A stretch of DNA of 64,000 nt, taken from contig NZ_LT605205.1 of NCBI RefSeq assembly GCF_900095135.1, forward strand, positions 3,782,001 to 3,846,000, read 5' to 3'. The translations under genes were made by a program, and so were the position numbers. Below are positions 4,672 to 18,542 of the stretch, in pieces. Below the pieces are notes generated by a model that made no database searches, was not told where the DNA came from, and was given only the letters and a program-made list of their open reading frames with translations. Each line of letters starts with the position of its first letter. Positions within the stretch are counted from its first letter, which is position 1. Source of the DNA: Proteiniphilum saccharofermentans. GTDB taxonomy: Bacteria; Bacteroidota; Bacteroidia; Bacteroidales; Dysgonomonadaceae.

Positions 4672-5607
4672 TTATTTACCCAACACAATTGTCCAGGTAC
4701 CTGAGAATGTTCCGGCATCAACTGATGCTGTTGCTTCAAAGGAAATCTTTGTATCACAGGCATTCACTATTCCCGTACCATTTCCAAAAGCGAAGTTATT
4801 ATAAGCGGGATTGCCCCACCAAACACCTGAATTTGGCACCAGGATTTGTTTATCAAAGGAGATAGAATAATCCACGGGGTTAACCTTAATAATCAAAGGA
4901 TTAGTTGCTTCCCCATTAAACAAACCCGCAATGCTCAATTCAGTATCTGATATTTTTGTCACTTCCACTTCGTGAGGGACTTCTTCCCACCAGGTATCCT
5001 CAGTGACGATACAAGTTCCGACGAAATCGTCTAAGACCAACTCACACACTACAGAATAACGTACATTGTATGAATATGCTCTACCGTTAACCCTCCAACC
5101 GGTTAATATTCTATTATTAAATCCGGTATGTTCAGTCCAACCGGGAACAACATAATCATCCTTCAATACCGCATTGGTAGTAAAGTAAAGTGTTTCTCCA
5201 ATATCCGGTGTAGTAAGTCCAAATTTGCTATAAACATCGGCCATATCGATAGTAATCTCTGTAGGAAAAGTAGTGATATTGTCTACAACAACTTTAGCAT
5301 CTCTTACAGTCTTGGTCCTATCCGGATTATCTTCGGTAGGGTCTGGAAGAACTCTTTCCAATACAGCAAACAACTGTCCATGTTTCAAGAAAGAATAATC
5401 GCCCTGCTGTTCAGGTATAGACAGCATTACTTTAAAATTCCCATCGGTCTGGCCTCTATATAACACACCATCCGTACCTTCAGAGCGCACTATATCTATT
5501 GCTACTCCTCTTTTTACATCATCAATGGGATAAGGCAATTCCTTGTCACAACTTTGTGCCGCAAAAAGCAAGGGCAGTATGAATAATATCAAATATATTT
5601 TTTTCAT
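4672..5607 (-). CDS. lipoprotein of unknown function in a SusCD operon
   Basis: 311 aa with a clear lipoprotein signal (FAAQSC at about residue 20). I do not recognise the family. The body looks like a surface beta-sandwich protein: many aromatic and Gly/Asp residues, no catalytic motif that I can name, and a C-terminal stretch (FEATASVDAGTFSGTW) like those in accessory surface lipoproteins. It lies 21 bp after the SusD gene and before a terminator, so it is the last gene of the susC-susD operon. By position it is probably a SusE/F-like accessory ligand-binding lipoprotein; this is inference from context only. Confidence 0.7.
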   Translation of the reverse strand: MKKIYLILFILPLLFAAQSCDKELPYPIDDVKRGVAIDIVRSEGTDGVLYRGQTDGNFKVMLSIPEQQGDYSFLKHGQLFAVLERVLPDPTEDNPDRTKTVRDAKVVVDNITTFPTEITIDMADVYSKFGLTTPDIGETLYFTTNAVLKDDYVVPGWTEHTGFNNRILTGWRVNGRAYSYNVRYSVVCELVLDDFVGTCIVTEDTWWEEVPHEVEVTKISDTELSIAGLFNGEATNPLIIKVNPVDYSISFDKQILVPNSGVWWGNPAYNNFAFGNGTGIVNACDTKISFEATASVDAGTFSGTWTIVLGK

Positions 5608-10505: not shown

Positions 10506-11107
10506 ACTCTACTACTTTTTTAATTAATAATTCATTCGAAATAAAATTCTGGTTTTATTACAAAAAGTGAGGGTATATACGGCTTCTCTGATTCGTGAAG
10601 ACGCATCATACCCTGTATTATGTTGTTGTGGTTTGTCGGGAAATGTAAAGTTTCAAAGTAAGGCAAAAAGACTGGGGTAATATTTGCTGATATTGTTTCC
10701 AGAAAACACAAAAGGGATTGCCGCCCTGACAAGGCAGACATAGATATACCGACCTTGTTCAAGACCAGCAAAAAAAGATATCGCACGCCGAAAACAGACT
10801 TCGACATGAAACTAAAAAAACAAATAAAACGGGATGATAACCTTTTAAGAAAAAGAGATCGGAGAGACTTTAAGAGGTTATAAAGCGATTTGCCCCCCCC
10901 GTTAAGGTTTGTCAACAAAAAGGGGAGTATTGTATTATTTTCTAACTTTAATCTCATCTGTCTCTACTTTTTCAAATAATTTGTCACAAATTTATATCAT
11001 TCTATTTTAATTTCACAATTTTATTTTATGAAAAATCGTTTTTTAACATATTGGGAAGGCAAATGGGAGAAAAGTGAGCAAATTTCGTTACATTGTGCAA
11101 CATGCTT
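10506..11107. other. 602-bp gap: long 5' leader of susC at 10505
   Basis: No convincing gene. It holds the promoter at 10987-11019 and about 475 nt between the likely transcription start and the susC ATG. The leader contains a run of eight C at 10893-10900. A 141-codon open frame on the minus strand (10532-10957) lies in the leader but looks like chance coding. No terminator hairpin was seen for the tlpA operon ending at 11108. Confidence 0.5.
10987..11019 (-). promoter_or_regulatory. promoter for the susC-susD-lipoprotein operon
   Basis: On the minus strand: ATTG (-33), 21 bp, TAAATTTG (-7). This matches the Bacteroidetes promoter pattern TTG/TTTG with 17-23 bp to TAnnTTTG. It points to the susC starting at 10505 and implies an unusually long untranslated leader. 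Confidence 0.5.
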
Positions 11108-12124
11108 CTAACGGACAGGAGCACTTAACAACTCTTCCAATGTTCTTTGCAAGTCTTCCCCTTTGAGATTTCGCGCTACAATTGCACCTTCTTTATCTAT
11201 AAGGAAGTTCGCAGGAATAAGCCTCACTCCATACTCTTTGACGCCTTGTCCTGCCCAGGCATTCCCATCTATCAGTTGCGGCCAGGCAAGACTATCCGTT
11301 TCTATTGCCTTAAGCCAAGGTGCAGCACTATTATCCAAAGATATCCCCACTATCTCGAAACCTTTGGACTTATATGTATCATAGGCCTTTACTAAATTTG
11401 GATTTTCTTTACGGCACGGCGCACACCATGAAGCCCAAAAATCGACAAGCACATAACCCTGGCCCAAATAGTCCGAAAACTTCACTTTATTGCCATCCCT
11501 GTCGGTTGCTTCAAAGTCGGGCGCTTTTTGTCCAACGGCGACTTTGTCCAATGTGTTTGCCAATTCATCAAGCACTTTCACATAGTCCGTACCTTTTAGC
11601 GAAGGATCGAGCAGATCAATATTAGCCTTTATCTCGTCCGGCGACAAACGATAGGAATAATAACGGTAGAACACATACAGCGCGGCAATAGAAGAGGGAT
11701 TCTCCCTGATCACCTCACTTATATCCGAAACTTTACGGTTTCTGATATCAATAAACAGGTCGTGCTCTTCAGAACCTTTTACTACGGTGTTTTTAAAGCC
11801 GTCAACAGTATCAAGATCCACAGTAATAGGGTTATTGTCGAGAAAAACGAGGTAGGAATAAAAAGGATTCGTTCCCGATCCTTCTAACGACAGACCATAT
11901 ATCTCCGGCAGCTTAACTTGGGTATCGAACTCGAATTTTCCATCTTTTATCTCTGTAGAGTCTATCGTAAAGAAAGATTTATTCTCGTACCGTTGCAGGT
12001 AGATCTTACCCGATGACTCATTCTTTACCGTACCTGAAAGATTTAATTTGTCAGGATTCTTTTCACAGCTCACCATCAATAAGGCCAAAGCTGCAATAGC
12101 GATAGGAAATAGATTCTTCTTCAT
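11108..12124 (-). CDS. TlpA/ResA-like thiol-disulfide oxidoreductase lipoprotein
   Basis: 338 aa. Lipoprotein signal (lipobox LMVSC), an N-terminal DUF4369-like beta domain (about 25-130: LNLSGTVKNESSGKIYLQRY), a helical linker, then a thioredoxin-fold AhpC/TSA-Redoxin domain (about 195-335) with the redox motif WCAPC and the cis-Pro loop RLIPANFLID. It should reduce or exchange disulfides, or act as a peroxiredoxin-like reductant, anchored to a membrane on the periplasmic side. It is the third gene of a susC-susD-tlpA operon (22-bp gap after susD) whose leader encodes Cys/Met-rich peptides, which suggests a thiol-related substrate. Confidence 0.9.
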   Translation of the reverse strand: MKKNLFPIAIAALALLMVSCEKNPDKLNLSGTVKNESSGKIYLQRYENKSFFTIDSTEIKDGKFEFDTQVKLPEIYGLSLEGSGTNPFYSYLVFLDNNPITVDLDTVDGFKNTVVKGSEEHDLFIDIRNRKVSDISEVIRENPSSIAALYVFYRYYSYRLSPDEIKANIDLLDPSLKGTDYVKVLDELANTLDKVAVGQKAPDFEATDRDGNKVKFSDYLGQGYVLVDFWASWCAPCRKENPNLVKAYDTYKSKGFEIVGISLDNSAAPWLKAIETDSLAWPQLIDGNAWAGQGVKEYGVRLIPANFLIDKEGAIVARNLKGEDLQRTLEELLSAPVR

Positions 12125-12145: not shown

Positions 12146-13627
12146 TTATTCATTTATCAATTCATTGGTCAATATCTCTGAATTCGGAATGGGAAATACA
12201 TAGCCTTCATCGGCCGGACCTACCTGGCGGGCAGTCAGGCTGGCCAGTGAAGGCTTGCCGGGGAACGTCTGCAAATCGCGCAAAATATCGTTTGCCCTGA
12301 AACCTTCGCCCAGAAGTTCGATACGTCTTTCGACCCTGATTGTAGTCAATATCTGATCTTGCGCCAATGCCTGTGCAGGGAAAATATAAGCAGCATCGGA
12401 ACGATTGCGGACAGCCTTCAACAATGCGACCGCCTTATTCAGGTCACCGCTGGTACTGCGGGCTTCAGCCTCTGCATAGTTAAGAAGCACTTCCGGATAA
12501 CGGATTACCGGAATATAATCTATCGCAGGACTCACCTTCGTATACTTGGCTAGCAGATACAACCCGAGACTACTGTTATATGAGACAAAATTGCGCCGCG
12601 CGTCGGATTCCCGCCATTCGGTATCGGATATTATCCCTGCAGGCTCTGTGTTAAGCACAAAATCAGGCGCACTGTAATATACATTTGCCAAAGCAGCGCC
12701 ACCGGGAGGATCCGCAACGGTCATAGGCATGGAGAACACCGATTCGGTTGTTGTATAATCGGCATTGAAAATAGTGGTGATATCCGCATTCAATGCATGT
12801 GTGACACCTGTCGTAGCTGAAAACGGCGCTTCATCCTGGGGAACTATCTTTTTAGCTTCTTCTATCACCTTGTCAAACTCGCCTTTATTCAAATAGACTC
12901 TTGTCTTCAAAGCAATCGCCGTATTTTTATGAGCACGGGTAGTATTCAGCAGAGCCGATGAATAACTTTCCGGCAAATTGACTTCGGCATAATCAAGATC
13001 CTCGATTATTTGCTTATACACATCAAATACCGTACTACGGGCCAGATTATTATTCGCCGATGACACCTCAGCCTGCAATCTTAAAGGCACAGCCTTGTCC
13101 TGGCCCCCGCTTTCGATATAAGGCCGGCCATAAAAAGTAACCAGATGGAAATAAGCCAATCCCCTCAGGAACCTTGCCTCTGCAATATAATTGCGTTTTT
13201 GCCCGTCGCTGATAACACCCTCCGACCTGTCCAACCCTTCTATCAGGACATTGGCATTGTTTATCACAACATAGGCTTGCTCCCATACACTGTTTATATC
13301 ACCGGTAAGGTTTGTAAAACTATTGGCCCACACATATCCCCCTGCCAAGGCATTTTCGGTGCGGATGACAAAATCTTCGCCACGCAGGTCTCCATACTGT
13401 ACCAGGCGCCCGCTATACAGGTTGGCACTCTTCAGCGACCGGTACGCTCCATTCACCAACCCTTCTATACGGGCAGGGGTGTCAAAGATCGTTGCCGAAC
13501 TGAGGGATGTTTGGGAAGTCTGATCGAGAAGGTCGTCACAGGAACTCACAAAGCCTAATGAGACAAGAACGGCTGCAATCACTATATTTCGTTGTATATG
13601 CTTATATTTATATATAGAAGTATTCAT
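12146..13627 (-). CDS. SusD/RagB-family lipoprotein
   Basis: 493 aa with signal and lipobox (LGFVSSC). Classical RagB/SusD layout: N-terminal DDLLDQTSQTSLSSATIF, the helical TPR-like core (RNYIAEARFLRGLAYFHLVTFYG, about 125-150) and C-terminal SusD segment (PVIRYPEVLLNYAEAEARS; IRVERRIELLGEGFRANDILR). It is partner of the SusC whose gene ends 22 bp upstream. Genes of this type next to TlpA-like proteins are common in Bacteroidetes; the ligand is not known. Confidence 0.93.
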   Translation of the reverse strand: MNTSIYKYKHIQRNIVIAAVLVSLGFVSSCDDLLDQTSQTSLSSATIFDTPARIEGLVNGAYRSLKSANLYSGRLVQYGDLRGEDFVIRTENALAGGYVWANSFTNLTGDINSVWEQAYVVINNANVLIEGLDRSEGVISDGQKRNYIAEARFLRGLAYFHLVTFYGRPYIESGGQDKAVPLRLQAEVSSANNNLARSTVFDVYKQIIEDLDYAEVNLPESYSSALLNTTRAHKNTAIALKTRVYLNKGEFDKVIEEAKKIVPQDEAPFSATTGVTHALNADITTIFNADYTTTESVFSMPMTVADPPGGAALANVYYSAPDFVLNTEPAGIISDTEWRESDARRNFVSYNSSLGLYLLAKYTKVSPAIDYIPVIRYPEVLLNYAEAEARSTSGDLNKAVALLKAVRNRSDAAYIFPAQALAQDQILTTIRVERRIELLGEGFRANDILRDLQTFPGKPSLASLTARQVGPADEGYVFPIPNSEILTNELINE

Positions 13628-13649: not shown

Positions 13650-16600
13650 TTAGAATGTAACATTCACTCCGAAGGTAAAGGTCCGTCCCAAACCGGCGGT
13701 GTTATATTCAACACCCGGTGCGGTATTTGAATTCCCGTTTGCCGACACTTCCGGATCGATACCACTGTAACCGGTTATAATGAACGCATTGGTTACTTGC
13801 CCGTAAACCCTTACCGCACTAAGCCTTGAAAAACCAAGAGCACTCTCAGGCAGGTTATAGGCGAATACCACATTCTGCAGGCGAAGGAAATCACCTTTTT
13901 CCACATGCTCTGAGATAGGGACCGATCCACCGAAGGAGATCCTGTCCCCATTTATGATCCTAGGGATATCGGTCTGCTGCCCGGGAGAAGTCCAACGTCG
14001 TAAAATATCGGTAGAATTGTTGAAAAATATCTGGTCGGTCAAGGTGGACCTGGTCCTGTTCATCACATAATTCCCTCCGGCATAGGTAAAGTTCAGATTG
14101 AGTTCAAAGTCTTTGTACGTAAGATTACTTGCCAATCCTCCGTACCACTTGGGAAGAGCATTTCCCAAAACATAAAAGTCATCTCCCGAAAGAGCTTCTG
14201 CCGTAGATCCGTCAAGATACGTCCACCTGTTCAAGCCGTTATATTGCACCTCTTCCCCTTTTCCATTAAGGAATACACGCTGGCCATTCTCCGGATTCAC
14301 ATACAGGGTTTTAAGACCATAAAGGCTCCCTATCGGTTCCCCTACACGGGTTATATTGGTGTTACCGCTACCGGTGGAAGCGATGATATCCTGATTTTCA
14401 TCCGCAAGGGATGTCACTTTGTTGCGTAGATTGGTATAATTGAAATTCAGGTTCCATGTAAGATCTTTTCTTCGGATCACTTCATATCCTATACCAAACT
14501 CAATACCTCTGTTGTACATGGACCCTACATTGGCAAGGATAGAATTTCCCGGTATTCCTTTCGATGGGGACTGTGCCACACTCAGGATCAACCCGTTCAC
14601 ATTGTTATTGAAATAGGTCAGTTCGGCATTGAGGCGGTTCGTAAAGGCACTCACTTCGATTCCCACATTGGTCTGTTCACTGGTTTCCCAGCTGAGATCC
14701 GGATTTCCCTGTTGTGTAATACTCCAGGTCGCGGCGCTGCCATAGAGGTAGGAAGAGTATAGGTCGTACGAACTATAATCGTTTTCAAGATTACCGTTAC
14801 CTACCTGCCCCCAGCTGGCATTCAATTTCACATTGTCGAATGTACGGGCCAAGGGGGATGACTTGAAGAAACTTTCTTCAGACAGCAGCCAACCACCCGA
14901 CACACCGCCGAAGTTCCCGTATTTACGGCCTTCCGCCAGGGCAGAATTTCCGTCCCTCCGGAAGTTACCGGTAAGAAAGTAACGCCCTTTGAGATCATAA
15001 CTAAGACGGGAGAAAAGAGAGGCAAAGACCCTTGTACCTTTCCTGTTTCCGGAAGCAACCACATTAGCCCATCCTCCCTGATAGTACTCGAAAAAATCAT
15101 CGGAAGCATTGGTGGCATTGGCACCCCACGCCGACAGTTCATTGTACTGGATGTCCGTTCCAAGCAGTGCCGACAGGTGATGATCTTTCAGAAAAGTTTC
15201 ATTGAACGAAAGCGTATTCGTCCATGCCTGATTCTGGCGTGTAATTGTCACGTTGGTCACCGACCCGCCACTGTTATAGCCACTCGAACCAAGTTCTGGA
15301 CTTAGAAAAGTGATATTTTCGGTCTTCACACGATCAATCGCATAAGTCGTTGTCAGTTCCACCTGTTTTACGGGTCTGATGCTCGCGCTTATATTGCTTA
15401 TCACGTGGTCATTCTGGGAAGTGTAACGGGACAAATCGAACAAAGCCGCAGGATTGTAAAGGGGGATGGTCGTCTTGTTGTTTCCCGATCCCAGTGTGCC
15501 GCTATTGGGATTTAAGTGGTAACTGCCATCGTCATTATATGCACCTACATTGGGTGGCAAGACCAGCGCAAGACGGGCCGCACCCGTTGTGGTCATGGAG
15601 GCCCCCGGAAGACTGCCCGTGTCGTAGGATTTGTTTTCGCTTACATTATACACTGCACCTGCCGTTAATTTAAGCCAGTCGGTGACCCTGTTATCCAGGT
15701 TGAAGCGGATTCCCTTTCTCTGGAAATCATTACCAACCAGAATCCCTTCCTGGTCGGAATAATTCAGCGACAAATAGTAATTCACCTTCTCCGAACCTCC
15801 CGCCACACTCAGTGAATGATTGTGTGAGACCGCTGTCCTGTATATATAGTCCCTCCAGTTTGTATCGACAATACTTCCGTCAGGATTGTAAGACAAAAAA
15901 TAGACCGGCTCTCTCTGCGTTCCATCTATCGCCGTTGCATTGGCTATCGATTCGTTCTTAATATCGGTATACTGTTGCGCATTCAACACGTTGGGCAATC
16001 GGGTGGCATTTGTAAATCCTACCCAGCTTTCATAGTGAGTAGTGGCATGTCCCGCTTTACCTCTCTTGGTGGTTACCAGTATTACGCCACCGGCAGCCTT
16101 CGACCCGTAAATGGCGGTCGATGCCGCATCCTTCAGGATGTCAATGGAAGCAATATCGGCCGGGTTTATATCTCCCAACGGGTTGTTTGCCGCACGGTTG
16201 GTAGAAATATCACCTGTACTTAACGGAATCCCATCCACCACGATCAGAGGGTAAGAACTCAATGAAATTGAATTAACGCCCCTTATGCGTATCACCGCCG
16301 GAGCATTCAACTGTCCGTTAGGCAAAGCAATACTTACACCGGCGGCCTTACCTTGCAGCGCCTGATCGAAACTCTGCACCGGCAGCTCTTTCACGAGATC
16401 GCCACTGATAGAGGCCACCGAACCCGTAAACTCCCGTCGGGATTGGGTCCCGTAACCAATAACCACCACTTCATTCAATATATTACGCTCTTCGGCCAGG
16501 GTCACAATGACAGGCTCCCCGGAATCATAGACATCAATTTCCTGTGCCGTATAACCGATAAAGCTCACCTCCAGCGTAACCGGCAACGACTGATCGATGG

Positions 16601-16829
16601 TAAGATTGAAATTACCTTCTTCATCACTCACTGTTCCGGTATTTGTTGACTTTATCATTATCGTGGCTCCCGGCAACGGGTTATTGTCCCTGTCAACCAC
16701 CGTTCCCTGTATCGCGTTTTGTCCATAAGCAAGGAAAGAAAAAAGGAAAAATACTAAAAAAACAGCCATCGGTTTTATTAGTATCGTGTATACATTGTTA
16801 TTCCTGAAAAAAAATTCTGATCGTTTCAT
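13650..16829 (-). CDS. SusC/RagA-type TonB-linked outer-membrane transporter
   Basis: 1059 aa. The N-terminus is long before the hydrophobic stretch (signal ends FLAYGQ, about residue 37); the internal Met at residue 21 could be the true start. Then come a carboxypeptidase-like domain (about 40-115), TonB-box-like NEVVVIGYGTQ, plug (PLIVVDGIPLSTG; IDILKDAASTAIYGSKAAGGVILVTTKRG) and a barrel ending FTFGVNVTF. It heads susC-susD-tlpA. Its transcription probably starts at 17362-17392 and must pass two peptide-hairpin units before this gene. Confidence 0.94.
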   Translation of the reverse strand: MKRSEFFFRNNNVYTILIKPMAVFLVFFLFSFLAYGQNAIQGTVVDRDNNPLPGATIMIKSTNTGTVSDEEGNFNLTIDQSLPVTLEVSFIGYTAQEIDVYDSGEPVIVTLAEERNILNEVVVIGYGTQSRREFTGSVASISGDLVKELPVQSFDQALQGKAAGVSIALPNGQLNAPAVIRIRGVNSISLSSYPLIVVDGIPLSTGDISTNRAANNPLGDINPADIASIDILKDAASTAIYGSKAAGGVILVTTKRGKAGHATTHYESWVGFTNATRLPNVLNAQQYTDIKNESIANATAIDGTQREPVYFLSYNPDGSIVDTNWRDYIYRTAVSHNHSLSVAGGSEKVNYYLSLNYSDQEGILVGNDFQRKGIRFNLDNRVTDWLKLTAGAVYNVSENKSYDTGSLPGASMTTTGAARLALVLPPNVGAYNDDGSYHLNPNSGTLGSGNNKTTIPLYNPAALFDLSRYTSQNDHVISNISASIRPVKQVELTTTYAIDRVKTENITFLSPELGSSGYNSGGSVTNVTITRQNQAWTNTLSFNETFLKDHHLSALLGTDIQYNELSAWGANATNASDDFFEYYQGGWANVVASGNRKGTRVFASLFSRLSYDLKGRYFLTGNFRRDGNSALAEGRKYGNFGGVSGGWLLSEESFFKSSPLARTFDNVKLNASWGQVGNGNLENDYSSYDLYSSYLYGSAATWSITQQGNPDLSWETSEQTNVGIEVSAFTNRLNAELTYFNNNVNGLILSVAQSPSKGIPGNSILANVGSMYNRGIEFGIGYEVIRRKDLTWNLNFNYTNLRNKVTSLADENQDIIASTGSGNTNITRVGEPIGSLYGLKTLYVNPENGQRVFLNGKGEEVQYNGLNRWTYLDGSTAEALSGDDFYVLGNALPKWYGGLASNLTYKDFELNLNFTYAGGNYVMNRTRSTLTDQIFFNNSTDILRRWTSPGQQTDIPRIINGDRISFGGSVPISEHVEKGDFLRLQNVVFAYNLPESALGFSRLSAVRVYGQVTNAFIITGYSGIDPEVSANGNSNTAPGVEYNTAGLGRTFTFGVNVTF

Positions 16830-16922
16830 ATTCTAATGCAAAAAATAATAATTCACTATATTCCAATTGGTGTATATATTTTATATTTGAATTGTAAAGA
16901 TTTCCCAAGCCGGACATACACC

Positions 16923-16959
16923 TAAAAAAACTCCCCCGAAGATATATCGGAGGAGTTTT
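16923..16959 (-). terminator. terminator/attenuator hairpin B before susC
   Basis: On the minus strand: AAACTCC, an inner CCGA/TCGG stem with a small loop, GGAGTTT, then T-rich sequence. It starts about 25 nt after the stop of Cys/Met-rich ORF B and about 100 bp before susC. Its 5' arm (TCCGATAT, plus 16944-16951) can instead pair with GTATCGGA at the end of ORF B (plus 16987-16994), so folding may be exclusive. Its sequence resembles hairpin A at 17144-17178, including a shared TTTTTAGGT after the stem. Confidence 0.75.
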
Positions 16960-16983
16960 CCCATATTTACAGTATGCACTCTT

Positions 16984-17103
16984 CTATCCGATACGTTGTC
17001 GTGGCAAACACATGCACATAGACATACATCCACAACAACAGGCAGCCACAAACGATGTGGAAGAGAGTATAGAGGAGCACTGGATATTTATTGAAGTCAG
17101 CAT
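16984..17103 (-). CDS. Cys/Met-rich 39-aa leader peptide B
   Basis: ATG at 17103, TAG at 16984-16986. It starts MLTSINIQCSS and carries the core CCCGCMSMCMC, then a short basic tail PRQRIG. Nine of 39 residues would be chance-unlikely to cluster so: seven Cys and three Met lie in or near the core. It aligns with peptide A (shared S-I-x-I-Q start, then a Cys cluster), so the pair is a tandem duplication. It lies between hairpin A and hairpin B, stop to hairpin about 25 nt. The Cys codon run (TTGTTGTGG) can pair with CCACGACAA just before the stop. Most likely a regulatory leader peptide; a soft-metal-binding peptide is the alternative. I know no family for it. Confidence 0.6.
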   Translation of the reverse strand: MLTSINIQCSSILSSTSFVAACCCGCMSMCMCLPRQRIG

Positions 17104-17143
17104 TGGCGATTTCTTTGAAAGTCAATATACTTTAATTTAAACC

Positions 17144-17178
17144 TAAAAAGCCCTCTCGACATGTATCGGGAGGGCTTT
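17144..17178 (-). terminator. terminator/attenuator hairpin A between the two leader peptides
   Basis: Perfect 9-bp arms on the minus strand (AAAGCCCTC with GAGGGCTTT) around a 14-nt centre, followed by TTTTTAGG. It begins about 30 nt after the stop of peptide A. Its 5' side (CCGATACA, plus 17162-17169) is complementary, with one G-U pair, to TGTGTCGG at the end of peptide A (plus 17212-17219). Confidence 0.75.
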
Positions 17179-17207
17179 CATATTCTTTATTTATCAAATA
17201 TCTTAGC

Positions 17208-17309
17208 TTATCCGACACAACAGTGTCCGAACATCATACACATAGGGCAACACATTGCGCTAAATGCATTCATGTTCAAACTGTTATATTGGATATAAAT
17301 ACTTTTCAT
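17208..17309 (-). CDS. Cys/Met-rich 33-aa leader peptide A
   Basis: ATG at 17309, TAA at 17208-17210; an in-frame ATG at 17273 would give 21 aa. The start MKSIYIQYNS parallels MLTSINIQCSS of peptide B, and the end is MCCPMCMMFGHCCVG: five Cys, four Met and one His in the last 15 residues. It lies about 45 nt after the predicted transcription start and about 30 nt before hairpin A, the usual geometry of a leader-peptide attenuator. A copper- or iron-binding role for the peptide itself cannot be excluded. Confidence 0.6.
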   Translation of the reverse strand: MKSIYIQYNSLNMNAFSAMCCPMCMMFGHCCVG

Positions 17310-17361
17310 TATCTATCAAAGTTAGACTATCTCAAAAGTTTATCCTTTCAGGAGTCCGGGA

Positions 17362-17392
17362 CAAAAGTAAAATTTAATATTATACAAGCAAA
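17362..17392 (-). promoter_or_regulatory. promoter for leader peptides and susC-susD-tlpA
   Basis: On the minus strand: TTTG (17389-17392), 19 bp, TACTTTTG (17362-17369). Both elements match the Bacteroidetes housekeeping consensus and the spacing is ideal. Transcription would start near 17355, just before peptide A. Confidence 0.7.
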
Positions 17393-17511
17393 ACAAAGAA
17401 TAACTATTTAACATTAATTAAAGGCAACTCGCTTTCATTTTAACACCAAACCTGCGCCTATCGTTTACTTTTGCCATTAATCATGTCTTTATAGTTAGCT
17501 TTTAATATTCA

Positions 17512-18402
17512 TTACCCGCCGACCCGTGTAAGTTCCTTTTTGATCTTTTCAAGTGTTTTTTCACTCACAGGAACCAGCGGCAGGCGGAGCTTGTTGTGGA
17601 TCATGCCTTTTAAATGGAGCAGGCATTTTACCCCTGCCGGATTGCCTTCTACAAACATAAGATGGAATAATGTCTCAAAATCGGCATTCATCTTACGGCG
17701 CGCATCAGCAGCATTGCCTTCCAGGGCATTCTTCACCAACCATACCATTTCAACCGGAAAAGCATTGGCAAATACCGAGATCACTCCTATCCCGCCAAGC
17801 GCAATCACATCAGTAGTAATGGCATCATCCCCTGAAATAACGTCAAACCCTTCAGGAGCCTTGTCTATGATCTCCTTGATCTGATTGAGATCGCCCGAAG
17901 CCTCTTTCACCGCTACAATATTGCCACAGTCTTTCGCCAAACGTAATGTAGTTTCGGCCGTCATATTCACACCCGTCCTTCCGGGCACATTATAAAGTAT
18001 GACAGGTAGCGGGGAGGCCTGAGACAAAACACAGTAATGTTGATAGAGGCCTTCCTGTGTAGGCTTATTATAATAAGGTGTGACGGATAGAATGGCGCTT
18101 ATCCCTGAAAAATCGGTACTTTCCAAGTCATTTACCAAGTCGGCGGTATTGTTACCTCCTATCCCCATCACTACCGGAATTTTACCGTTCACCTGTTCTA
18201 CTATAAAACGCACCACTTCGTGCTTCTCCTTCTTTGAAAGTGTGGGAGTCTCGGCCGTGGTACCCAAAGCCACAATATAGTCTGTGCCGCTCTCCAGATG
18301 AAATTGCACCAACCGGGAAAGTGCTTCATAATCTATGGAATTATCCTCTTTAAAAGGGGTGATTAGGGCCACCCCCAAGCCTCTGAGATCAACTTTTGAC
18401 AT
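17512..18402 (-). CDS. dapA: 4-hydroxy-tetrahydrodipicolinate synthase
   Basis: 296 aa, the usual length. Cytoplasmic class I aldolase-type TIM barrel that condenses pyruvate with aspartate semialdehyde in lysine/diaminopimelate synthesis. Seen: GLGVALITPFKEDNSIDY at the N-terminus, GTTAETPTL (substrate loop, about 45-53), the YNVPGRTG motif with the catalytic Tyr (about 135-142) and the Schiff-base Lys in VAVKEASGD (about 160-168). It is transcribed alone, divergently from hydG, with a -7 element at 18472-18479. Confidence 0.95.
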   Translation of the reverse strand: MSKVDLRGLGVALITPFKEDNSIDYEALSRLVQFHLESGTDYIVALGTTAETPTLSKKEKHEVVRFIVEQVNGKIPVVMGIGGNNTADLVNDLESTDFSGISAILSVTPYYNKPTQEGLYQHYCVLSQASPLPVILYNVPGRTGVNMTAETTLRLAKDCGNIVAVKEASGDLNQIKEIIDKAPEGFDVISGDDAITTDVIALGGIGVISVFANAFPVEMVWLVKNALEGNAADARRKMNADFETLFHLMFVEGNPAGVKCLLHLKGMIHNKLRLPLVPVSEKTLEKIKKELTRVGG

Positions 18403-18471
18403 GAAAGGTATATTTTTTCCAGCAGTTTATTCACGGAACACTCATTTAAAAAACAAAATGATTCCGAATCA

Positions 18472-18479
18472 CAAAGGTA
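18472..18479 (-). promoter_or_regulatory. -7 element of dapA promoter
   Basis: Minus strand TACCTTTG, a full match to TAnnTTTG, 70 bp upstream of the dapA start in the divergent dapA/hydG intergenic region. No clear -33 element at the usual distance. Confidence 0.5.
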
Positions 18480-18542
18480 TATATTTTTAATTAAGTCAGA
18501 AATTTTATTCACGGTGATAGAATAAAATCGTTCTGATAATGT

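Follow-up and report, generated by a model that had tools for sequence, protein, structure and literature searches.

What is the role of two short open reading frames, rich in Cys and Met codons and each followed by a hairpin and a run of T, that lie upstream of a susC-susD-tlpA operon in Proteiniphilum saccharofermentans? The locus is part of a stretch of 64,000 nucleotides (the window) from a complete genome of 4,414,963 bp, and the order on its minus strand is dapA, promoter, uORF1, terminator 1, uORF2, terminator 2 and susC-susD-tlpA. In our analysis it is very likely a tandem, ribosome-mediated, cysteine-responsive transcription attenuator of the trp-leader type. This reading draws on the leaders, terminators, antiterminator complementarity, homology, gene contexts and partial coding constraint that we computed; the signal and direction of the attenuator are what we infer.

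The Bacteroidota-type promoter lies at 17362..17392 (-), with TTTG at 17392-17389, a 19-nt spacer and the box TACTTTTG at 17369-17362, named by what we take to be the Bacteroidota -7 consensus. It had been proposed in a sequence-only reading of the locus and holds up in the wider family: in 14 of 18 leaders the 120 nt ahead of the first uORF contain TAnnTTTG, 39-92 nt away from the ORF, where the expectation is 0.058 per 120 nt. Transcription would start near 17355. A second TAnnTTTG box, TAACTTTG (17317..17324, -), is only 15 nt ahead of ORF1 and is a possible alternative, nearly leaderless start; two boxes are also present in the homologous leader K_G005, as in the first window unit (W1). 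Neither this promoter nor a minus-strand terminator came up in a consensus scan of 16800-18500, whose totals (8 promoter-like sites, and 1 terminator-like site on the plus strand) were in no clear excess over shuffles (5.1 and 1.5). A separate scan detects both minus-strand terminators.

Leader ORF1, MKSIYIQYNSLNMNAFSAMCCPMCMMFGHCCVG (17309-17208, -), has 33 codons, five of them for Cys, and has homologous leaders in relatives. Its first Cys codons (TGT TGC) are at 17247..17252 (-), and another follows in PMCMM. Terminator 1, a stem-loop with a T run at 17145..17178 (-), has a folding energy of -20.9 kcal/mol (z -5.7). Leader ORF2, MLTSINIQCSSILSSTSFVAACCCGCMSMCMCLPRQRIG (17103-16984, -), has 39 codons with seven Cys, including the CCCGC cluster at 17026..17040 (-), and terminator 2, again a stem-loop with a T run, occupies 16924..16959 (-; -23.2 kcal/mol, z -5.1). 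For each terminator none of 200 shuffles was equally stable, in agreement with the two ORF-hairpin units first read from the letters. When the window was filtered for short ORFs (12-90 aa, at least five Cys, a CC or CxCxC cluster) four passed, namely ORF1, ORF2, an overlapping frame of ORF2 and an other-frame ORF inside susD. No Rfam family reached its gathering score in the window, and the known cis-regulatory families (S-box, T-box, SAM riboswitches) were not found in it.

The operon consists of susC (13650..16829, -), a SusC/RagA TonB-linked outer membrane transporter (TIGR04056, 749.6 bits), susD (12146..13627, -), a SusD-family lipoprotein (PF14322, PF07980), and a gene for a TlpA-like lipoprotein (11108..12124, -) with DUF4369 (PF14289), AhpC-TSA (PF00578) and a WCAPC motif; the intergenic gaps are 22 and 21 nt. 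Two further proteins encoded among SusCD genes of the window, of 141 and 311 aa (10532-10957 and 4672-5607, -), have no Pfam match at 0.001 and no NCBIfam match at 0.1.

The complementarity expected of an attenuator is located at the end of the uORF. Its consensus, TGTATCGG, can base-pair with CCGATACA in the terminator's 5' arm and loop, and a stretch able to pair in this manner is present in 24 of 24 units from the window and relatives, a set into which units were admitted only with a terminator. In the window, antiterminator strand 1, GTGTCGGA (17211..17218, -), pairs with CCGATAC of terminator 1 (-14.7 kcal/mol, p 0.017 versus shuffles), and strand 2, GTATCGGA (16987..16994, -), pairs with TCCGATAT of terminator 2 (-12.7 kcal/mol, p 0.022). 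The first 15 units were used for per-unit geometry, folding and the first covariation tests, and all 24 for the later covariation and duplex tests. The terminator helix is paired in 98.1% of cells over the 24 units, with 36 cells changed on both sides, a result found in 0 of 500 shuffles. The antiterminator helix is 89.5% paired, compared to 24-50% when slid, and six cells have double changes (5 of 500 shuffles); the tlp and metN rows are misaligned in this helix and count against it. Its covariation score was not above shuffles, being reached by 71 of 500 with 24 units and by 116 of 500 with the first 15. The free duplex outperformed its shuffles (p<0.05) in 15 of the 24 units, including the two from the window, and was not significant in nine. 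The Fisher value over 15 representatives, p ~1e-8, is not a true probability because the representatives are related. In the unit metN_G102 the pairing strand comes after the stop codon.

A further candidate hairpin, P1, is made of Met codons. In unit 2 it spans 16995..17039 (-), with 17039-17030 pairing with 17004-16995 (-17.1 kcal/mol, z -2.9). Across units it is 79% paired and its covariation score is reached by 3 of 500 shuffles, with single-unit z-scores that are mostly weak. It is a candidate pause hairpin, and could account for the Met codons without any Met sensing. P1 did not clearly compete with the antiterminator, which counts against the attenuator model.

The folding test, in 15 units, modelled a ribosome sitting at the Cys cluster of a transcript that ends at the terminator loop. 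The antiterminator had a probability of at least 0.73 in 13 of them; in the window the value was 0.82 for W1 and only 0.29 for W2, and it was 0.46 for S_G102. Once the 3' arm was present, the terminator won at equilibrium in all 15, and therefore the switch must be kinetic, as holds for trp too. The E. coli trp leader gave 0.71 for the antiterminator and 0.98 for the terminator in the same test, so the folding pattern matches that of a proven attenuator. The spacing was judged by the size of the ribosome footprint. From the Cys cluster to the end of the antiterminator strand there are 40-64 nt, and from the strand to the end of the ORF 4-14 nt, or 30 in cysK_G102 (15 units); from the stop codon to the end of the T run there are 58-77 nt (sd 5, 24 units). 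This geometry fits a ribosome that frees the antiterminator strand when at the Cys codons and covers it when at the stop codon.

Constraint on the peptides themselves was estimated from ortholog pairs. The pooled pN/pS over seven pairs is 0.52, with six pairs at 0.16-0.52 and one at 1.85; nine pairs were computed, and the two left out of the pool gave 0.59 and 0.46. Conservation is 42 of 52 for Cys positions versus 128 of 191 for other residues, and 31 of 38 for Met positions versus 139 of 205. The C-terminal codons (CC[IV]G, IVLDRG) are also constrained by RNA pairing. These values lend modest support to translation of the leader ORFs. Of the coding conservation and covariation for which the sequence-only reading had proposed to test relatives, the covariation of the terminator is evident and the coding signal is modest; the antiterminator score alone fell short. 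Values of pN/pS below 1 in six of seven pairs, together with ORF starts such as IQYN that are conserved in several leaders, would also suit functional small Cys-rich proteins, with terminators that just end short transcripts and a susC that has its own promoter. We consider this very improbable, given that the C termini of the peptides track the RNA pairing, the distance from stop codon to terminator is almost constant, the only TAnnTTTG boxes on the minus strand between 17460 and 16800 are the two ahead of ORF1, and the leaders follow sulfur genes rather than one operon.

A second instance of the arrangement exists in the same genome. The leader DNA has one other match there, at a distance of 0.9 Mb, and the matching part is 36 nt of the second hairpin. 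Read by eye, this locus is again a double leader, VRIFLQDTAATICNTSVKRGCCMCMCMDMCMSFRRCCVGVE, terminator, MNKYFIQYNDNTCTTCCMTMCCCMAMCMVRNHIVLDRGK and terminator, and downstream of it are genes for a solute-binding-like (SBP-like) protein, SusC, SusD, TlpA and an M14 carboxypeptidase. Tandem duplication of the whole unit, as had been surmised from the window alone, is borne out by the relatedness of the units and by this recurrence. Between the two leader-bearing operons TlpA is 52% identical, SusC 32% and SusD 26%, and the thiol-disulfide protein is therefore the best-kept partner. The 313-aa SBP-like protein that heads the second operon (L033:10793-11734) is conserved along with the operon (to 42% in Parabacteroides). 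Its AlphaFold model is of low confidence (mean pLDDT 51.2) and its family signals are weak, with PF01547 in 4 of 9 members (best E 0.00067) and a best PDB sequence match at E 0.099. In species with a single unit a GH123-type glycoside hydrolase gene (PF13320) is divergent beside the second leader locus (L035:6-1784, L036:62-1861), and N termini similar to that of this enzyme are found in L015 and L151. The cysE and cysK genes of the window genome itself have no leader of this sort, a point against the attenuator reading.

A peptide profile, applied to 39 genomes of the genus, picked out the second-locus leader in seven more. Ten genomes have the second locus, with two units in six and one unit in four; G035 and G009 were added to these later, by covariance model. 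When the second-locus protein was compared with named genomes, five loci were obtained, including Proteiniphilum acetatigenes DSM 18083 and a Proteiniphilum MAG, the best match being labelled a Paludibacter MAG. Two covariance models were built, R1 from 15 units and R2 from 24. Leaders found with R1 and confirmed by reading are present in at least 12 of 101 family genomes, a lower bound because only some candidates per genome were scored. Cys-rich ORFs with a hairpin, for which the sequence-only reading had suggested a search of relatives, are found there upstream of both SusC/TlpA and sulfur genes. The double leader at the second SusCD-TlpA operon and the occurrence in at least 12 of 101 genomes indicate that the leader is not a product of chance. 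Nor does it simply travel with SusC, since distant SusC homologues in the genus (L004-L011, 35-39% identity) had no comparable leader by the short-ORF filter; L004 and L005 are near contig starts.

The gene contexts that came up in relatives are decisive. The 24 units precede SBP/SusC/TlpA operons in 19 cases, cysK in one, a PLP enzyme in two and metNI in one, and one is at a contig end (beside dapA, G032). The count excludes the K-locus units of G021, whose DNA is identical to that of G000, and a lone G021 leader by dapA (L054) without a terminator; the named contigs L148-L151, which repeat K leaders, were omitted. In G102, of another genus, leaders precede cysK (TIGR01139, 462.9 bits, cut-off 350.95), metN-metI (MetI 367 bits, cut-off 212; MetN 417.6 bits, under its cut-off of 499.7), a TlpA-like gene with SusC 640 nt further, and another SusC. 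In G007 and G021 a leader is ahead of a PLP enzyme of Cys/Met metabolism (PF01053, 419.9 bits), a gene for which the window genome yields nothing at E<=1e-60. Lone unit-1-like leaders by dapA, the site of the window leader, occur in G021 (L054:1501-1602), with no visible terminator, and in G032 (L155:515-622), at the contig end; they may be what is left of the window locus, or that locus in a broken assembly. In Parabacteroides massiliensis a Cys-rich uORF, MERSRKLNQSRWQTTYVCSHVCMRMCRQAQL (L152:5804-5899), is ahead of a distant (42%) homologue of the SBP-SusC-SusD operon and has no R1 match. It is directly downstream of a PF01053 Cys/Met PLP enzyme gene and a PF00155 aminotransferase I/II-like gene, which we take to be MalY-like, and is perhaps an independent Cys leader.

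All 24 units have 3-9 Cys codons. A Cys- and Met-rich sequence of this kind is compatible with a nascent peptide that takes up copper or some other soft metal while still being made, halts or frees the ribosome and in this way sets termination; metal-responsive Cys-rich uORFs of the CruR and CopL types are known in other bacteria. The sequence-only reading had kept a metal-binding peptide as its alternative, and the genes that the family precedes (cysK, the Cys/Met PLP enzyme, metN-metI and TlpA/SusC operons, with no metal transporter among them) now disfavour it, to the point that we assign it hardly any weight. The Cys spacing is not fixed either, with four patterns among the leaders (CCP-MCM, CCCGCMSMCMC, CCMCMCMDMCM and CCCxMxMCM), and the cysE leaders of other families described below have little in common but Cys runs. 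Adjacent metal-homeostasis genes and fixed Cys spacing, which we take to be traits of CruR and CopL, are not found here.

A still less probable reading, which we regard as close to negligible, is that these are plain 5' UTR terminators accompanied by chance ORFs, with no regulation. Terminators are common, and the 12 weak model matches that we read (five R1, seven R2; two R2 matches, L179 and L181, and other weak R1 matches were left out) had no Cys leader: the five R1 matches (L160-L164) and seven R2 matches (L168-L170, L172-L174, L178) look like ordinary terminators after genes. A peptide HMM run over 393 Bacteroidales genomes had strong matches only in the window genome, with 12 weak loci (L055-L066); the six that were inspected, L055-L060, showed no Cys leader ahead of a gene, the Cys-rich frame of L055 being within a coding gene. 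Chance ORFs are hard to square with homologous Cys leaders in 12 or more of the 101 genomes, the covarying terminators and the sulfur-gene contexts.

Beyond the leader family, the attenuator reading is supported by unrelated poly-Cys leaders before cysE in several other families of Bacteroidales. Over the same 393 Bacteroidales genomes, R2 gave three weak matches (E 1e-5 to 8e-5). In each, a Cys-rich uORF (MLKRIVKHMFCCCMASQTGLCFDLYD, MRNIESIAATWCCMWYRFVPQGNCYARC or MLVNKGFMHLCCICCWLPTSVGGGMSYVNRIEA) and a terminator immediately precede the gene for a serine O-acetyltransferase, and cysK comes next. The acetyltransferases score 143-169 bits with cysE TIGR01172, under its cut-off of 210.65, and two of the three are over the EpsC (NF041874) cut-off of 150; the L175 enzyme matches solved serine O-acetyltransferases at E 4e-55. 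The best match of the cysK genes, on fragments cut by locus ends, is TIGR01139/TIGR01136. A Cys-run uORF was found before cysE in 12 of 45 Bacteroidales loci (L217 is doubtful, with a misread cysE start), where dinucleotide shuffles predict 0.12; this is an association and not a prevalence, because the loci were picked by similarity to leader-bearing CysE. The spacing to a terminator was correct in 9 of 45. These 45 were the automatically readable loci of 50, and two of the five left out (L193, L205, L208, L210, L231) had Cys-run uORFs on inspection. Of 143 other gene starts 23 were positive: 19 known leader genes (redundant loci), three cysE missed by the filter (L171, L205, L208) and one cysK (L192). 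Apart from G102, none of 29 cysK upstream regions of the family has a Cys-run uORF, and 20 further cysK stretches read by eye, with the cysK start recognised in 11, had no poly-Cys uORF near cysK. The uORF MRHLFFIISIWFHTCCCPSSEG upstream of cysK in L192 (2069-2137), with no terminator detected, is possibly another form of Cys control.

Attenuation through Cys codons, the central proposal of the sequence-only reading, thus gains support from related leaders before cysK, the PLP enzyme and metN-metI, from unrelated poly-Cys leaders before cysE(-cysK), from the antiterminator at the uORF end and from the trp-like folding. As for Met, which the sequence-only reading had placed beside Cys in the signal, its role is uncertain, since some of the Met-codon pattern falls within P1, which shows some covariation. 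The Met codons may add Met sensing or may belong to that hairpin.

In the mechanism that we infer, which extends to uORF translation, stalling, the direction of the response and the substrate, RNA polymerase would start near 17355 with a ribosome trailing through the Cys-rich uORF. With ample Cys-tRNA(Cys), the ribosome would reach the stop codon and cover the end of the uORF, the terminator would form and transcription would halt. With scarce Cys-tRNA, the ribosome would stall on the Cys cluster, which begins 35 nt (unit 1) or 47 nt (unit 2) before the pairing strand; the freed uORF end would pair with the emerging 5' arm and loop of the terminator, and polymerase would read through. Stalling on the last Cys codons of type-1 units should not help, because those codons sit at the antiterminator strand. 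In series, the read-through probabilities of the two units would multiply, and the switch should therefore be tighter. The predicted output of susC-susD-tlpA is import of cysteine, cystine or Cys-containing peptides, with TlpA reducing disulfides. The regulated genes in relatives (cysK, cysE-cysK, metNI, PF01053) do serve the sensed amino acid, and the window operon presumably does as well.

For Bacteroidales more broadly, we lean towards a cysteine regulon run by poly-Cys leaders and intrinsic terminators, in which leaders of separate origin came to stand before cysE-cysK several times. One family, in Proteiniphilum and its relatives, would be a spreading, duplicating cassette that puts SusCD-TlpA(-carboxypeptidase), cysK, metNI and a transsulfuration-type gene under the control of tRNA(Cys) charging, its serial copies forming a cascaded attenuator and the SusCD-TlpA systems acting as outer-membrane importers of cystine or Cys-rich peptides. 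The substrates of SusCD systems are usually guessed from neighbouring enzymes, and a Cys-sensing leader offers an independent, testable prediction of the cargo of an orphan transporter. The natural duplication, single in some species and double in others, is a way to ask what serial attenuation buys, and the leader family with models R1 and R2 can be used to map sulfur-amino-acid regulons in the Bacteroidales group.

A literature search judged from its listings, covering few subscription papers, turned up neither a Cys attenuator in Bacteroidota nor attenuation of a SusCD system. Attenuation and Cys uORFs (in Actinobacteria) are already known, and the intrinsic-terminator form in Bacteroidales, its duplication and the control of SusCD were not found in the searchable literature. 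Within the phylum, the available text on Flavobacterium psychrophilum reports signs of leader-peptide attenuation before amino-acid biosynthesis operons and names no cysteine leader or SusCD operon (PMC9723704), and that on Bacteroides thetaiotaomicron describes sORFs reminiscent of leader peptides (PMC7366714). The available text of a broad attenuator survey does not mention 'bacteroid' (PMC2965389).

The closest mechanistic likeness is E. coli trpL, which has a uORF with regulatory codons, an antiterminator that uses the 5' arm of the terminator, an intrinsic terminator and the same behaviour in our folding test. Compared to trpL, the leader described here would sense Cys (perhaps Met), the end of its uORF is the antiterminator strand, two full units are in series, and an outer-membrane transporter is controlled. 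In Salmonella, the two mgtCBR leader ORFs respond to different signals, ATP and proline. As far as the available parts of the sources tell, Cys leader peptides have been predicted before cys operons of Mycobacterium and others (Seliverstov 2005, PMC1262725), Cys-rich uORFs with ribosome occupancy have been reported in mycobacteria (Shell 2015, PMC4633059), and cysteine-responsive, leaderless polycysteine attenuators have been described there (Canestrari 2020). These actinobacterial leaders are alike in being short uORFs with runs of Cys codons upstream of cys genes. In the same sources the mycobacterial leaders have no conserved terminator hairpin (PMC1262725) and are leaderless (Canestrari 2020), whereas each unit here has an intrinsic terminator and an antiterminator. 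As to leaderless transcripts, 14 of the 18 leaders have the -7 box at 39-92 nt from the ORF, and in the window the second box, 15 nt from ORF1, could give a nearly leaderless one. Cysteine attenuation, reported from Actinobacteria in the literature found, would thereby extend to Bacteroidales with intrinsic terminators. For the tandem arrangement, the available text on Salmonella mgtCBR describes a leader with a pair of short ORFs that govern how a transporter operon is transcribed (PMC3641672); compared to that leader, both units of the present one are copies of a single module with the same kind of codons.
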